Source: Muribaculaceae bacterium
GTDB taxonomy: Bacteria > Bacteroidota > Bacteroidia > Bacteroidales > Muribaculaceae
Direction of reading: 5' to 3'
Assembly: GCA_017409345.1 (NCBI GenBank)
Contig: JAFQSX010000012.1
Span: 1 to 64,000 of the forward strand
DNA length: 64,000 bases
Shown: positions 4,187-11,911 of the stretch, piece after piece
How positions within the stretch are numbered: position 1 is the first letter of the stretch
Layout: every line of letters begins with the position of its first letter
Made by a program: the position numbers and the translations under genes
Notes under the pieces: generated by a model
The model's input: only the letters and a program-made list of their open reading frames with translations
The model's database searches: none
What the model was told of the DNA's origin: nothing

Positions 4187-4930
4187 TTAACCGAGATTGG
4201 CATCTTCGCGATTTTGCGAGAGAAGATGAGTGGCTACGTAGTCAGAGAAGGTCTGTTTGTAGGAGTCGCTGATGGGTATATATTTGTTGCCAAACACGAT
4301 GCGATTTCGTTCGATAATTTTGATTTTGGTGGTATTGACGATAAATGAACGGTGCACTCTCATAAACGTTGACGGGAGCGATTGCTCTAGAGTTTTCATG
4401 TTCATGAGTGTCATAATGCTTTTTTGTTCATCGACGGTATATATTTTCACATAATCTTTTAGCCCTTCGATAAATAGAATGTCGGATGTCGGAATTTGAA
4501 CAAGTCGATATTCGCTTTTTACTATTACATAATCGCGAGTGGAACCTTGCGATGAGCTATTGCGTTGTATTTCAATCCATCGTTGAGCCTTGTTGGCCGA
4601 TGCCAAAAAGTCCTCATAACTGATAGGTTTGAGTAGGTAGTCTAGAGCATCGACTTTAAATCCTTGAATGGCATATTGGTCATAGGCTGTGGTGAAAATG
4701 ATGCGAGTGGTTGGTGGAATGATTTTGGCAAATTCCAATCCATTTAATTGGGGCATTTCTATGTCGAGAAACACAAGGTCAACTTGATTGTCAAGAATGG
4801 TTTTAATCGCCTCTTGAGCCGATGAATATGTTCCCACCAATTGCGTGAAGGGGGTTTTCTCGATATAAGAAGCGATTAATTGGCTAGCCAATGGTTCGTC
4901 ATCAATAACGCAGCATTTAAGAATTGTCAT
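4187..4930 (-). CDS. LytTR-family response regulator
   Basis: 247 aa. An N-terminal receiver domain (1-~120) has the acidic pair in CVIDDEP and the phospho-acceptor Asp at about residue 56 in VFLDIEMPQ. The C-terminal half (~135-235) is a LytTR DNA-binding domain (YVIVKSEYRLVQI, then MRVHRSFIVN). It overlaps the upstream histidine kinase gene by 14 bases, so the two are co-translated and form one two-component system. The family controls envelope, autolysis or nutrient-transport genes in other bacteria; the target here is unknown. Family-level call is firm. Confidence 0.93.
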   Translation of the reverse strand: MTILKCCVIDDEPLASQLIASYIEKTPFTQLVGTYSSAQEAIKTILDNQVDLVFLDIEMPQLNGLEFAKIIPPTTRIIFTTAYDQYAIQGFKVDALDYLLKPISYEDFLASANKAQRWIEIQRNSSSQGSTRDYVIVKSEYRLVQIPTSDILFIEGLKDYVKIYTVDEQKSIMTLMNMKTLEQSLPSTFMRVHRSFIVNTTKIKIIERNRIVFGNKYIPISDSYKQTFSDYVATHLLSQNREDANLG

Positions 4931-6101
4931 TTTGGTTAAATTTTGAGTTATTTAGATTGATAATTAATTCTACTTGGAAAGTGTTATCTTGTTGGATAAC
5001 ATTGAATGAAGCATCCTTGCCATAAATAATATTTAGCCGTCGTTTCAAATTGGCAAAACCGATGCCTGAATCTTTTTTATCTATATGGTTATTATTGTCA
5101 AAATGGTTAAATGTATAGCATCTAACTATTCCCTCATTGACCGAAATTTCAATCTTTATAGGGTTAGAGATATTGCCGGTGTTGCCATATTTAAATGCAT
5201 TCTCAATGATAGGGATAAAAATGAGTGGAGCAACTTTGTAATCGCAATAACCTTTGCATGATAATGTCGTTTCAATAGGTCGCTTTCTATTCATTCTCAT
5301 CGTCATTAGTGAAATAAAATTATTCAAGAAATCAATTTCTTGCTTAAGAGTCACCATTTCAGATGTATCATATAGAGCATACCTCATCATTCCGCTCAAT
5401 TCATGTATCGCCTTTTGGGCTTTAGTGGGATTAATAGCAATGAGGGCATAAATGGTGTTGAGCGTATTGAATAAAAAGTGTGGATTAATCTGACTTTTAA
5501 GATTTTCCAATTCAGTTTCGCGTTGTGAGGCTATCAATGCTGCTTGCTTGCGTTGTGTTTCAAGCCAACGAGCAGTTACTCTCACTGCAAAAGCCAAACC
5601 AATGGAGAGAATTGCAATTAATAGGTCGCGCGATAATCGCCCTGCAGCATGGAGATAAATATTATTATGCTCATGACGAGGCGGATGGATATACTCAAAT
5701 GGTTTGCCTTTGGGCGTTTCGTGGGCATGGGGGGTGAATTTTTCTTCTTGATGATGAGGTGGTTTTTTTATCGGATGAAAACCTTTGTCGGTATAACCAT
5801 GTGAAGTAGTTAAGATAATGCATGATGCCACGAATAACAACATTATATTAACCCCAAAGAAGTGCCATTTACCACCTTTTTTATCAAGAAACCTATCAAT
5901 CAAGAAGTAATTGATATAAAAAATAACCAAATATATGATAGTCTTGATGATTATGCCATCGGGTACTGGTCGTTGATCATCTATATTGGTAATTACTTCG
6001 GGGAGAACAAACAAAGAAATAGCCGAAAGGTGAATCAAAAGATTCACTAATGAATGTTGTTTTGATTTAATAAAACTTATAAATTTTTCTACCATTTTCA
6101 T
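4917..6101 (-). CDS. LytS/YehU-type membrane histidine kinase with His-rich loop
   Basis: 394 aa. About four membrane segments fall in residues ~18-175. The His_kinase domain follows, with the phospho-acceptor in QINPHFLFNTLNTIYALI (~205) and an ATP-binding N box in PIIENAFKYGN. Between the third and fourth membrane spans, residues ~100-152 contain ten histidines (HPIKKPPHHQ, HAHETP, HPPRHEH), unusual for this family and suggestive of metal or pH sensing. Start may be Met1 or Met3. It sits just upstream of, and overlaps, the LytTR regulator at 4187. A TAATTTTG box lies at 6127-6134. Kinase call is firm; the ligand is speculative. Confidence 0.92.
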   Translation of the reverse strand: MKMVEKFISFIKSKQHSLVNLLIHLSAISLFVLPEVITNIDDQRPVPDGIIIKTIIYLVIFYINYFLIDRFLDKKGGKWHFFGVNIMLLFVASCIILTTSHGYTDKGFHPIKKPPHHQEEKFTPHAHETPKGKPFEYIHPPRHEHNNIYLHAAGRLSRDLLIAILSIGLAFAVRVTARWLETQRKQAALIASQRETELENLKSQINPHFLFNTLNTIYALIAINPTKAQKAIHELSGMMRYALYDTSEMVTLKQEIDFLNNFISLMTMRMNRKRPIETTLSCKGYCDYKVAPLIFIPIIENAFKYGNTGNISNPIKIEISVNEGIVRCYTFNHFDNNNHIDKKDSGIGFANLKRRLNIIYGKDASFNVIQQDNTFQVELIINLNNSKFNQNDNS

Positions 6102-7798: not shown

Positions 7799-8347
7799 AT
7801 GAAATTATCATTTGAAGTAAAAGAATTATTAAAACAAAAATCGGGTAGAGATCTCACATCGCCTGCCGATTGCGACTATATCGCTTTAGATATTTTTAGT
7901 GTCACTAATGAGCATATTGGAGTAAATACACTGAAAAGATTATTGGGATTTCTTGATGAAAATCGTGAAGCGAGAATATCTACATTGAACATTATAGCCC
8001 GATATCTTGGATATCCCGATTGGGAAGCATTATCCAAAGCCGATGTGAGCAACTCCACTTTCGATAACGCAACCGAAGATCTGATTGTTGAAAATCTAAG
8101 TAAAGGACAAAAGGTAGAAATAACCTATCTTCCCAATCGGAGATTGGTGCTTGAATATAAGGGCGACTTTCAATTTGTCGTCAAAGAAAGTCTTAACAGC
8201 AAATTACAAATCGATGACACTATAGAAGTGCAACATTTATTACTAAATTATCCTCTTGTAGCATCTAATGTTATGCGTCAAGGCGAAAATTTAGGACAAT
8301 TAAAAGCTGGTGTTGTATCCGGTCTAAAATCAATTAAATTATTGTAG
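7799..8347 (+). CDS. Conserved hypothetical partner of the adjacent kinase
   Basis: 182 aa, no signal peptide or membrane span. The N-terminal ~80 residues (ELLKQKSGRDL, GVNTLKRLLGFLDE) have the helical pattern seen at the start of several Bacteroidetes regulatory proteins, where TLKRL precedes a short DNA-binding-like segment. The C-terminal half is beta-rich (KGQKVEITYLPNRRLVLEYKG). It ends 6 bases before the kinase start, so the two genes are almost certainly one operon. No family name assigned. Plausible roles are adaptor, substrate or regulator of the kinase; all inference. Confidence 0.75.
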   Translation: MKLSFEVKELLKQKSGRDLTSPADCDYIALDIFSVTNEHIGVNTLKRLLGFLDENREARISTLNIIARYLGYPDWEALSKADVSNSTFDNATEDLIVENLSKGQKVEITYLPNRRLVLEYKGDFQFVVKESLNSKLQIDDTIEVQHLLLNYPLVASNVMRQGENLGQLKAGVVSGLKSIKLL

Positions 8348-8353
8348 AAAACG

Positions 8354-9721
8354 ATGGACGTGTCGCAGTTTGGAGAGCAAAGGATTATTGATACACTTAT
8401 TGCCGATGCCCAACCATTGCAATTAAACGGGGCAACGTGCGACACCTACTATGCTCGATTGCATGGCCGACGCGTTTTTATCAAGCGACTAAAAGAAAAA
8501 TATCGATTAGACCCTCGATATCTGGCCGCACTTGAGAAAGAATTCAAATTGGGTTATCGTCTTGAGCACAAAGCATTACCTCGATATATATCTTTCGAAC
8601 AAGATGCCATTGTGATGGACTTTGTTGAAGGGGTAACCTTAACGCAATTTATTAAAGAAAACCCTGAATACTTCTCTCTCAAAAAGAATATTGATAAATT
8701 TATGATGCAATTACTTGAAGGAGTCAAATATTTGCATCATAACTCAATACTACACCTCGATTTAAAGCCCGAAAACGTCATGATTTCACATATTGGAAAT
8801 GATGTGCACATCATTGATTTGGGCTTTTGCTATTCCGATGCATTCAATGACACGATAGGCTATACTCATTCATTTGCCGCTCCTGAACAGGAAGGCAAAT
8901 CTCAAGTAAAGGTGGGAACATATACCGACATTTTTGCTATAGGCAAAATTTTGGAATACATATTGACCCGACAAAAGCGCAAGCGATATTTGAATATTGC
9001 ACGAAAATGTCAAAACGAAAACCCACAGCAACGCCCCGAAATAGAAACATTACTTTCTTTGTTTTCTGCTACTTGGCAATGGAAAAAGGGAGTATGGATA
9101 GCGTGTATTCTTGTCGCAATACTTGTCGTCGTTGGGATTTTTGTGTTTGCCAATAAACCTCACATTGAAAATGAGATTGAACCTAAGCAATCGATTACCG
9201 AAACCAAACAAGAAATAAACCACCAATCAGTCACCGTAGAAGATAGCCCCAAGATTAATAACATTCCCGATAAAACAACAGTACCACAGCAAACATCTTC
9301 CAAAAGCACTATCAAAGATAGCCAATCATCCCCTCAACCGACCTATAAATATCCGGCTCCCGACTACCCCTATCAATCAGCACAATCCACTTTGGAAGTG
9401 AAGCGAGATTGGTATCGTGAATTGCGACCTATATACGACAAAATGTTGGCGCAATATATGGCTACCGATTCAATGTTATGGTTTAACTCTGATTTTCAAA
9501 AATGTGCGTATCAATTAATTGAAAACCAAAAGACGACGATAAATAAAAAGCATTCCACGATTTCAACCGATGATATTTATAACGATGGAATGCATGTATA
9601 TACAATGATTATATGGATGCACGAAGGACTTCCCGTTGAAATAAGCGGATATAAAAGACCACCTCGACCCGATTTGACAAAATATGCCATTGAACAAATC
9701 GCTTTGTTTGAAAAACACTAG
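8354..9721 (+). CDS. Hanks-type Ser/Thr protein kinase, membrane anchored
   Basis: 455 aa. The catalytic domain spans ~25-240: VAIK-type Lys44 in VFIKRL, catalytic loop HLDLKPEN (Asp136, Asn141), Mg-binding DLG (Asp155) in place of DFG, and APEQ at 176-179. The usual Gly-rich loop GxGxxG is not evident, so the N-lobe is atypical. One transmembrane helix (~248-267, CILVAILVVVGIFVFA) follows. Next comes a Ser/Thr/Gln/Pro-rich linker and a C-terminal ~110-residue domain outside the membrane with no family I recognise, possibly a sensor. The invariant catalytic residues suggest it is active. Co-transcribed with the 182-aa protein; the next gene is more than 400 bases away. Confidence 0.9.
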   Translation: MDVSQFGEQRIIDTLIADAQPLQLNGATCDTYYARLHGRRVFIKRLKEKYRLDPRYLAALEKEFKLGYRLEHKALPRYISFEQDAIVMDFVEGVTLTQFIKENPEYFSLKKNIDKFMMQLLEGVKYLHHNSILHLDLKPENVMISHIGNDVHIIDLGFCYSDAFNDTIGYTHSFAAPEQEGKSQVKVGTYTDIFAIGKILEYILTRQKRKRYLNIARKCQNENPQQRPEIETLLSLFSATWQWKKGVWIACILVAILVVVGIFVFANKPHIENEIEPKQSITETKQEINHQSVTVEDSPKINNIPDKTTVPQQTSSKSTIKDSQSSPQPTYKYPAPDYPYQSAQSTLEVKRDWYRELRPIYDKMLAQYMATDSMLWFNSDFQKCAYQLIENQKTTINKKHSTISTDDIYNDGMHVYTMIIWMHEGLPVEISGYKRPPRPDLTKYAIEQIALFEKH

Positions 9722-9766
9722 CCTCAAATGGATAAAATGGATAAATAAAAAACAGTGATACTATTC

Positions 9767-9774
9767 TATCTTTG
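9767..9774 (+). promoter_or_regulatory. -7 promoter box upstream of the structured RNA
   Basis: Perfect TATCTTTG, predicted to start a transcript near 9780, just before the 5' arm (9799) of the long-range stem. A second match, TAACTTTG, lies at 9837-9844 inside the first hairpin. Confidence 0.55.
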
Positions 9775-9779
9775 CATAT

Positions 9780-10083
9780 AAGTTGTTATATGCGAAAAAA
9801 AACAGCTCACAAATGCCAAAGTTTAAGAATTTTTCTTAACTTTGTCCTGTTGCAATAGTGCGACAAGACATATTTTGGAAGCGTTTAGCATTATTCCATC
9901 TTGATGAACTTCGACAACTCATTTTGACTAATGGAATAAGAGTAACGTTCCTTTTTGGTGTGTTATATCTCTACATATAATATTGCCAAAAAGTGTGAGC
10001 TGTTTTCTTATTCGTAGTCAAGGCAGTCGAAGGCCCATCAAGCGAATTGGATTAATTAGCCCACACTTTCTTTTTATGCCTTG
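9780..10083 (+). ncRNA. Candidate structured non-coding RNA, unassigned
   Basis: No gene is seen in 9722-10141, but the sequence folds extensively on paper. A 13-bp closing stem pairs 9799-9811 (AAAACAGCTCACA) with 9994-10006. Inside it are four hairpins: 9817-9823/9838-9844 extended by 9825-9829/9833-9837; 9849-9854/9861-9866; a long arm 9878-9886/9943-9950 plus a perfect 9-bp 9891-9899/9931-9939; and TTTTTGG/CCAAAAA at 9952-9958/9986-9992 with an inner TTATAT/ATATAA. Downstream, 10019-10025 CAAGGCA pairs with 10077-10083. The segment 9990-10001 can pair instead with 10058-10069, followed by CTTTTT. Promoter boxes precede it. It does not show tmRNA or RNase P signatures. A 6S-type RNA or a cis-regulator of the gene at 10142 are possible; identity is open. 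Confidence 0.5.
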
Positions 10084-10141
10084 AAAACAACCCTAAATTG
10101 AAAATTCGTTCTAATCGGTAATTTAACTAATAATAAATAAC

Positions 10142-11911
10142 ATGAGACATCCTATCATTTTATGTGCGATATTAATCGCCGGCATTTTCACTTCTTGCAG
10201 TCAACTTGAGAAGGAGAAAGAGGAACAAGAACAAGAAAAGATTGTAAAAATCACACCTATGTTTAGTGCAAAAGTGCAACAATATATCGAACTGGGTAGT
10301 TTTTGTGAGGGATATGCAACAGCCTATAGAGAGATAACCGACACAACCGGTAATCGTAGATATGTTTATACTTATATTGACACTGAAGGCAATGAGATTC
10401 CACAATGTCATTATGAATATGCTAAAGACTTCAGTGAAGGGTTGGCTGCTGTGAGGAAAGACGGTAAGTATGGATATATCAACACGAAAGGTGAGGTTGT
10501 TTTGCCTTTTAAATATAGTGAAGCCGATTGTTTTGGTGATAGTTTGGCCGCCGTTTATAAAGATGGGAAATACTGTTATATAAATAGAGAGGGAGTTGAG
10601 GTAATTTCAATTCCCAAGAACGAAGACGAATATGCAGAAACTATATTGACCCCATTTTGTGAAGACCTCGCTTTTGTAATTAAGCCCAACGGTTGGGAAT
10701 ATTTTGAGTATTATGCGATTGATAAAACCGGAAAAAAACTCTTTGAAGGCAAACTTGGTGGTTGGTGTGCCGAAGAAGGTGGTCGTTTTAATGCCGATTA
10801 TATACCAAAGATTCAAAATGGTGAAGTTTATGTTCCATCTGAAGACTACGATACTTATGATGTATATAATAAACAAGGGCAAAAACTTAGGACTGAAAAG
10901 AGCAAGCCCCTAAATAATGGAAATTTTGAGATTATTGCCCAGAAAGTGTCTTTTGGGAAAAATGAATATGAGCATATTGTTCGCTATGGGATGAAAGAAA
11001 TAAAAAAAGATTCAACCGATACAACCACAACATTTGGACATATCCCTGTTATATATGATAAGATTCATGAATTGAATAATGGAGTGGCTTTAGTGTGTTT
11101 ATATGAATATGATAAAGAAGCATTGATTTATGGTGAAGTTGAAGGAGGATATATTGCAGACACACATTATGGATATGCTGATTTATATGGAAATCACACA
11201 TTCTCGCCCGAAGTTATGAAGAAATGTCATAAGGCATTTGAAAAATCGGAGTCAGCATTTAAAGCATATAAAGAAGAACTAAATAATCCACAATGGTTGA
11301 AAGGTACTTGGAGAGTTGAATCTAATAATGGATATATCTATAGGATATTTAATGATGGAAAATGCATAACATATTTCCAAAACTATCCCAATGTGCAAGA
11401 AGGGAAATATTCTCTACAAGATGGAATTATAAGCATAGAAGGAGAGGATGCGTCAATGACATTAGATTGTGAACGCGATATTGTGAGAGGTGCCGATTGG
11501 AAAGATTGGAGCAAAATATCTAATTCAACAACAATTGATAATAATCTAAAAGGTGCAAATGTTCAAAGTGCTAATTCTTCTAATTCTTCAAACTCTGATA
11601 ATGATAAAAGTTATTATGGCACTTTAGTCGCAAGAAATTGCACTGCATCTCTAAAAGCATTACATCCAATTAGACCTATGCATTGTTATTTTAATATATA
11701 CTATGATGGATATGCATTTGCTGCAAAACGGTTAGAATCAAACGGAGGTAAAGAGGTTGAAGATGAGGGATTATTGGTCGTATATATTAATCCGGAATTT
11801 GATGAAGATGCTCCTTATAATAGTATGATTAAAGACCATACATATGCACAACATATGATTATATATAAGGGTATTAAGTATTATCTAAATATCCCTGGTG
11901 TTAGACGTTGA
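10142..11911 (+). CDS. WG-repeat lipoprotein
   Basis: 589 aa. Signal peptide with lipobox (GIFTSC), so the lipid-modified Cys is at about residue 19, followed by a charged Glu/Lys linker. Residues ~50-180 carry WG/KWG-type repeats (KDGKYGYINTKGEVVLPFKY, KDGKYCYINREG), a fold of unknown ligand common in Bacteroidetes surface proteins, with further degenerate copies to ~370. The region ~380-450 (LKGTWRV, YRIFNDGKCITYF) resembles a lipocalin-like barrel. A Ser/Asn-rich linker and a ~90-residue C-terminal domain end the protein. AT content rises after ~10.7 kb. First gene of an envelope-protein run; function unknown. Confidence 0.82.
   Translation: MRHPIILCAILIAGIFTSCSQLEKEKEEQEQEKIVKITPMFSAKVQQYIELGSFCEGYATAYREITDTTGNRRYVYTYIDTEGNEIPQCHYEYAKDFSEGLAAVRKDGKYGYINTKGEVVLPFKYSEADCFGDSLAAVYKDGKYCYINREGVEVISIPKNEDEYAETILTPFCEDLAFVIKPNGWEYFEYYAIDKTGKKLFEGKLGGWCAEEGGRFNADYIPKIQNGEVYVPSEDYDTYDVYNKQGQKLRTEKSKPLNNGNFEIIAQKVSFGKNEYEHIVRYGMKEIKKDSTDTTTTFGHIPVIYDKIHELNNGVALVCLYEYDKEALIYGEVEGGYIADTHYGYADLYGNHTFSPEVMKKCHKAFEKSESAFKAYKEELNNPQWLKGTWRVESNNGYIYRIFNDGKCITYFQNYPNVQEGKYSLQDGIISIEGEDASMTLDCERDIVRGADWKDWSKISNSTTIDNNLKGANVQSANSSNSSNSDNDKSYYGTLVARNCTASLKALHPIRPMHCYFNIYYDGYAFAAKRLESNGGKEVEDEGLLVVYINPEFDEDAPYNSMIKDHTYAQHMIIYKGIKYYLNIPGVRR

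Follow-up and report, generated by a model that had tools for sequence, protein, structure and literature searches.

A structured RNA with complementary hairpin loops, probably a leader, ahead of largely unrelated genes in Bacteroidales of gut and rumen

Riboswitch and attenuator leaders with intrinsic terminators lie ahead of their genes, contain mutually exclusive helices and end in a helix and a T-run before the open reading frame (ORF). In the CopA-CopT extended kissing complex, complementary hairpin loops close to a gene start can grow into a junction of several helices, and in the IncI-alpha/IncB repZ pseudoknot an upstream element pairs near the start codon. EAR, put and LoaP-leader RNAs are structured antitermination RNAs heading operons, and Rfam holds 6S (RF00013), 6S-Flavo (RF01685) and Bacteroidales-1 (RF01693), RNAs of Bacteroidetes or of general occurrence. 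Here we describe an RNA at positions 9780–10083, + strand, of a 64,000-nucleotide stretch of Muribaculaceae DNA (contig JAFQSX010000012.1, positions 1 to 64,000; the window below), inside a gene-free interval upstream of a WG-lipoprotein ORF. It shares leader position, mutually exclusive helices and the helix with T-run before an ORF with the riboswitch and attenuator leaders, but it is without a known aptamer, its putative switch consists of two hairpins with complementary loops, and the genes it leads are mostly unrelated. Unlike CopA-CopT, both hairpins are in one molecule. Unlike repZ, there is no plasmid replication gene, and the loop of a further hairpin, Z, covaries with a terminator-like arm. 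In contrast to EAR, put and the LoaP leaders, the RNA has no Rfam match and differs in anatomy and taxa. It belongs to an apparently uncatalogued family of gut and rumen Bacteroidales and some bacteria related to them. Its members precede genes that for the most part have nothing in common, and probably take part in deciding whether these genes are switched on.

The fold of 9780–10083 reaches −87.6 kcal/mol, compared with −58.8 ± 4.4 kcal/mol in shuffled sequences (z −6.5; 0/100 shuffles as low). The opposite strand likewise folds well (z −5.5), so that fold energy alone does not decide the strand; the + strand was chosen because of the promoter boxes, the T-run, the following start codon and the homologues. 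A coding gene was rejected, the sole + strand ORF of at least 40 amino acids (aa) in the interval being one of 40 aa with a GTG start. A sequence-only reading had proposed a large structured RNA in this gene-free interval, and the fold energy, the homologues and the covariation bear it out. The 9-bp perfect arm that it described is present, TTATTCCAT at 9891–9899 with ATGGAATAA at 9931–9939, and so is its 13-bp closing stem, as 9799–9811 with 9994–10006, the 3′ side having been placed at 9990–10001. The two rival partners it saw for this mid segment, 9799–9811 or 10058–10069 (11/12 positions pair), both covary in homologues, the compensatory changes that it had proposed to look for in aligned relatives, and its possible pseudoknot and switch-like anatomy are supported as well. 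To this the present analysis adds an inner −7 box (9837–9844), loop-loop complementarity (9909–9915/10026–10032) with its flanking helices, and recurrence in many genomes. The RNA closes with a helix and a T-run ending at 10075, and the WG-lipoprotein start codon lies at 10142. The parts in the window are as follows.

9767–9774, + strand: outer −7 box TATCTTTG, of Bacteroidetes type (sequence)
9799–9811, + strand: 5′ arm of P0, with partner 9994–10006 in the predicted long transcript (covariation in 33 long-type loci, z −8.8)
9837–9844, + strand: inner −7 box TAACTTTG, also of Bacteroidetes type (box or close variant 20–66 nt before the anchor in 69/71 loci)
9849–9864, + strand: first hairpin, GTTGC/GCGAC (alignment)
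9878–9889, + strand: conserved GAAGCGTTTAGC (alignment)
9891–9939, + strand: hairpin X, stem 9891–9899/9931–9939, flanks 9900–9906 and 9923–9930, tip loop 9909–9915 (covariation)
9951–9993, + strand: hairpin P4, CTTTTTGG/CCAAAAAG (covariation, z −10.7)
9990–10001, + strand: mid segment, pairing with 10058–10069 (P7) or, as 9994–10006, with the P0 arm (covariation, sequence)
10007–10050, + strand: hairpin Y, stem 10007–10014/10043–10050, flanks 10015–10021 and 10036–10042 (covariation)
within 10007–10050, + strand: tip of hairpin Y, stem GGC 10022–10024/GCC 10033–10035, tip loop with 10026–10032 (covariation)
10058–10066, + strand: 3′ box, the 3′ arm of P7 (covariation)
10066–10075, + strand: T-run CTTTCTTTTT (sequence and alignment)
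10142–11911, + strand: led gene, WG-repeat lipoprotein-like ORF (PF14903, E 9e-29)

Directly after the T-run, ATGCC at 10076–10080 is conserved in many loci; it could pair with GGCA 10022–10025, and reads as a two-codon ORF in some loci.

Seven full or near-full copies with the same anatomy (69–73% identity) were found by blastn against 61 own and related genomes, in four other genomes of the genus. They have in common the TAnnTTTG boxes, a GGAAGCG-type region, GGCAGTC...GCC and a GCTCACACTTTCTT-type end. A pattern built on this 3′ end gave 10 matches in 7/297 genomes of the family, with none for the reversed control pattern among the matches listed, and 73 stretches in genome contigs. The labels of the 73 are Bacteroidales or Bacteroidia (Prevotella, Bacteroides, Phocaeicola, Parabacteroides, Alistipes, Muribaculaceae and unclassified), except for locus L105 (loci are numbered with L), on a 4.2-kb contig labelled Clostridiales that is taken to be misbinned. 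The pattern had no match in viral contigs and the RNA had no blastn match in plasmid and phage collections, on which grounds a phage or plasmid origin was rejected. After leaving out L055, L066, L104 and L105, cut by contig ends, and L096, whose 5′ part has diverged, 69 loci remained, thinned to 65. Two covariance models extended the range: R1, of the 3′ module without hairpin X, and a second model, R2. R1 matched 23/344 genomes of the order (E ≤ 1e-4) and 11/12 genomes of the genus (E ≤ 0.01), with up to nine matches per genome, one of them antisense. At E ≤ 1e-5, R2 matched 21/395 genomes of the class, 12 of these lying outside the order, and 4/395 genomes of a phylum sample, all four inside the class. 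In the window's own genome R2 gave 12 matches at E ≤ 1, namely the window, the window antisense, one at E 0.29 and nine other places at E ≤ 0.014; the first listed downstream + strand ORF begins at 49–108 nt in eight of these nine and at 319 nt in the other.

The pairings were assessed over the 65 loci by comparing duplex energies of each locus's own strands with 2000 permutations of partners. The tip loops of X and Y (A5-A3) give z −9.3, the outer flanks (B) z −17.9, the inner flanks (C) z −22.8, the Y stem z −11.7, the X stem z −7.0 and P4 z −10.7, each with 0/2000 permutations as good, and unrelated pairs are flat (B5-C3 z +0.9; mid-A3 z −1.1). In alignment A5 (62 rows), 94.6% of the cells of P7 and the Y tip stem are paired, and 38 are changed on both sides as against 10.9 in shuffles (0/500); slid registers lower the pairing to 21–57%. 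Reading GAA/GCC and AATTC/GGCA as internal loops of one long stem was given up for tip stems, because GGC/GCC is changed to GGT/ACC in 7/62 rows. Tip loops complementary over at least 7 nt occur in all 65 core loci. Among 41 R1 hits picked by hand by locus id (L121 nearly equals L144), 36 have an exact complement, at least 7 nt long, of the Y tip loop upstream, though R1 was built without hairpin X; new loop sequences appear among them, e.g. CCTAGGAA/TTCCTAGG and TGTGGCA/TGCCACA. For 39 R2 hits picked in the same way (L192 and L188 were already in the R2 training set), 30 pass the 7-nt test, as against 13/500 shuffled upstream sequences, two of the 30 in a wrong register (L169, L206). On re-inspection L206 has a proper 7-nt match, and L169 has just 6 nt in register by eye. 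In a looser test, complementary loop or flank stretches of 7–9 nt were seen in L169, L174, L182, L197 and L204–L207, and stretches of at least 8 nt in 30/39 R2 hits versus 41/500 shuffled sequences; L178, L180 and L188 reach at most 6 nt.

A + strand ORF of at least 50 aa is readable downstream in 61 of the 65 thinned loci, and in 54 of the 61 its start lies within 120 nt of the 3′ box (median 53.5 nt). In none of these 54 does a TAnnTTTG box stand between RNA and ORF. The nearest ORF is on the same strand downstream in 60/61 and upstream in 40/59. Because of this close same-strand ORF without an intervening box, the RNA is taken as a leader of the following gene; a helix followed by a T-run, a putative terminator, is seen in alignments A4 and A5. 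Sequence comparison supports the RNA, its helices and pairings, its promoter boxes and its place before ORFs. Its promoter boxes and terminator-like end would also suit a stand-alone small RNA, 6S-type or trans-acting, that is merely located before genes. We regard this as quite improbable given that no Rfam family matches, that the close ORF is without its own −7 box in 54/54 loci, and that the box-Z pairing described below extends into the mRNA.

How could such a leader act? We give an even chance to a cis-acting 5′ leader of the following operon in which X-Y pairing competes with the terminator hairpin. Here we infer termination control, its direction and its trigger. Y and its basal helix P7 together with the T-run would form an intrinsic terminator (OFF). 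The loops of X and Y would kiss and their pairing would spread into the flanks, giving an intramolecular extended kissing complex; this spread would open Y and P7, and RNA polymerase would read through (ON). A protein, a ligand, the ribosome or the speed of transcription may tip the balance. Computed folds of 9850–10075 reach −67.1 kcal/mol when free (X:Y) and −56.9 kcal/mol with P7 enforced, and those of 9780–10075 −85.8 kcal/mol free and −78.9 kcal/mol with P0 enforced. In a nested model the states are therefore mutually exclusive, with X:Y the most stable; the order of synthesis could let another state win. That the RNA is a riboregulator of the operon behind it had been suggested by the sequence-only reading and remains the best interpretation; its family, though, is not specific to WG lipoproteins and leads many unrelated operons.

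The promoter boxes suggest a further layer. In 69/71 loci the GAAGCG-type anchor has a −7 box, TAnnTTTG or a close variant of it, 20–66 nt upstream, and from the position of this inner box the short RNA should begin near 9849 in the window rather than at 9780. In 33/64 loci, the long type (an assignment that is doubtful for L068), an inverted copy of the mid segment begins 35–40 nt before the inner box. In these 33 the P0 arm pairs with the mid segment (z −8.8, 0/2000) and the stretch after the P0 arm with the stretch before P4 (z −6.0, 0/2000); the other 31 loci give z −0.1 and z −0.7, respectively. A second TAnnTTTG upstream of the P0 arm is found in 17/33 long-type loci compared with 1/31 loci without the extension. 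The presence criterion used for P0 is passed by 561/2000 swapped mid/upstream pairs because many loci share the sequence. On these sequence grounds we read the long type as an outer-promoter transcript with a three-way junction that includes P4 and has P0 as its closing helix; P0 would take the mid segment from P7, which would favour read-through. Inverted copies around a promoter in 33/64 loci, with DNA invertase or recombinase genes upstream in some loci, could also be looked upon as an invertible promoter, a DNA element with the P0 arms as inverted repeats flipped by the neighbouring recombinases. However, the 5′ half has one orientation in 69/70 loci with enough upstream sequence, the exception (L096) keeping the orientation of hairpin X; the repeat is missing from 31/64 loci; and the second P0 arm pairs with the sequence ahead of P4 (z −6.0), in keeping with a three-way junction of RNA. 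An invertible promoter is thus hardly credible. The repeat ends also brought MITE-like mobile DNA to mind, an idea given up since in the long type these ends pair as RNA and 31/64 loci are without the left end.

Many members have a hairpin, Z, beyond the T-run and close to the start codon, with a loop that is matched by the inner half of the P7 3′ arm. Of 74 boxes, 57 are GGCTC, with an exact GAGCC downstream in 30, and 17 differ. Among the latter, GGGCC follows 8 of 11 GGCCC boxes (two pairs among these are near-duplicates), GGAGC follows both GCTCC boxes and GAGCT the single AGCTC box; the remaining three, the window's included, have no exact downstream complement. Own versus permuted pairing of the 3′ box with the downstream 90 nt gives z −13.7 (0/2000) over 135 loci with at least 70 nt downstream, nine near-duplicates having been left out by hand, and z −11.2 (0/2000) over the 80 boxes without GGCTC; the box was placed by a T-run rule, which misplaces it in several rows, e.g. 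L129, L147, L090, L091, L108 and L201. In the read-through mRNA of many members, the 3′ box could bind the Z loop beside the start codon, and translation may be adjusted in this way. In a purely translational leader, the fold would use the 3′ box and hairpin Z to govern how ribosomes reach the start codon, while P7 with its T-run would be no real terminator. This reading would draw on the same covariation, on Z sitting after the T-run, past the point where termination is decided, and on the tail beyond the T-run being conserved in many loci. We consider it unlikely.

Several observations weigh against the termination leader with competing X-Y pairing. The window's fold energy favours X:Y, so that the OFF state would need kinetic or protein help, and simple termination leaves the conserved ATGCC after the T-run unexplained. 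The window has a poor second P0 arm and a weak Z (−3.3 kcal/mol), and 7/61 loci are without an ORF within 120 nt. The permutation tests ignore the relatedness of loci. P7 is nearly invariant in the 65-locus set (z −1.5, 155/2000), and the alternative pairings E5-D3 (z −6.1) and D5-E3 (z −5.6) score too, a signal that the long X:Y duplex predicts if both states exist, but that mere likeness of short arms could give as well. Swapped controls attain 7 nt in 108/400 cases for the R1 hits, because many loci share a loop, and for the R2 hits are not empty either (37/500).

Family scans covered 107 of 110 listed downstream and 53 of 68 listed upstream proteins. Among the best 25 of 89 families, the commonest downstream Pfam matches are zinc ribbon (9), OMP beta-barrel (5), PEGA (5), LRR_5 (4) and CarboxypepD_reg (4); with the commonest at 9/107, the coherent led-gene set of a metabolite riboswitch was not seen. 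A defence-gene scan of the 107 gave 41 families, none in more than two proteins and mostly kinase-like, MADS or Ssp models. Upstream (best 25 of 47 families) there are 12 Pkinase, 3 Phage_integrase and 2 Resolvase matches. One RNA at the head of many unrelated, often long, accessory operons recalls an EAR- or put-type antitermination RNA, which would help RNA polymerase past later terminators, together with a factor that may be NusG-like, by analogy to the RfaH, UpxY and LoaP systems. Against this, no partner protein is consistently adjacent (kinases make up 12/53 upstream proteins scanned), and control on the spot is the better explanation for a T-run directly behind the fold; we hold this explanation rather improbable.

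With regard to known RNAs, a scan of the whole window with Rfam 15 gave just two tRNA matches at gathering level, and cmscan of 9700–10160 at E ≤ 10 gave seven matches, all to families other than 6S, 6S-Flavo and Bacteroidales-1. A 6S-type RNA had been proposed for the interval; with no 6S model among these seven and the element recurring before ORFs, the proposal fails, and a search of the own genome (75% complete) for 6S-Flavo gave nothing at E ≤ 10. ARAGORN reports two tRNAs and no tmRNA in the window, as the absence of tmRNA landmarks had suggested. An Rfam scan of 37 relatives found no family covering the RNA, the hits being tRNAs and one DUF805b element. By these scans 6S, Bacteroidales-1, tmRNA and other Rfam families were rejected as identities. 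The DUF805b RNA (RF02914) lies at L178 547–582, about 950 nt from the R2 hit, in a genome of another order. In the literature, no description of the RNA was found at the level of titles, abstract starts and passages, with numbered motifs in survey supplements lying outside this scope; the passages of PMC2864571, PMC8040213 and PMC7366714 do not describe it.

Tentatively, and at somewhat less than even confidence, we propose that the RNA represents a class of gene regulators that has not been described. Its members would form an intramolecular extended kissing complex, with loops free to change as long as they match, and would serve as a portable header for unrelated accessory genes of Bacteroidia (surface proteins, kinase-linked operons, restriction-modification). 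They would act first on termination and afterwards, by a second pairing of box and loop, on translation. With several copies in some gut and rumen Bacteroidales genomes and, within the scans made, no entry in Rfam 15, such a structured RNA would add to the phylum a cis-regulatory family that is sizeable and so far uncharacterised. The accessory operons that it marks may be under a common control. As the loops match, the mechanism lends itself to a direct test, in which one loop is altered and the other then altered to match. The two promoter boxes of the long-type copies suggest that the fold could depend on which promoter is used.

As for the neighbouring genes, the RNA in the window is preceded by a Ser/Thr kinase gene and by a protein of 182 aa that matches nothing in Pfam or NCBIfam, and followed by the WG-repeat protein. 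The Ser/Thr kinase gene (window 7799–9721) recurs upstream in L053, L054, L059, L063, L065, L070, L072, L080, L091, L092, L094 and L100, in some loci preceded by a protein of 182–187 aa of no known family; in L102 and L117 relatives of the kinase gene are placed downstream. Elsewhere in the own genome, one copy heads a restriction-modification pair of a C5-methylase and a BpuJI-like endonuclease (L213 5457–7912), and another a weakly matched methyltransferase. Small DNA recombinases lie directly upstream in L050 (5662–6291, a Mpi-type serine invertase), L051 (2858–3445) and L101, a locus of the cultured Bacteroides mediterraneensis (4762–5352), the last two XerC-like tyrosine recombinases, and related recombinases were detected by blastp in L093, L110 and L119. 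Finally, direct repeats (ATGGATAAAATGGATAA; TTGTACA...TGTACA) at window 9728–9744 and in the upstream parts of L002, L004, L005 and L022 precede the outer promoter box and look like operators.
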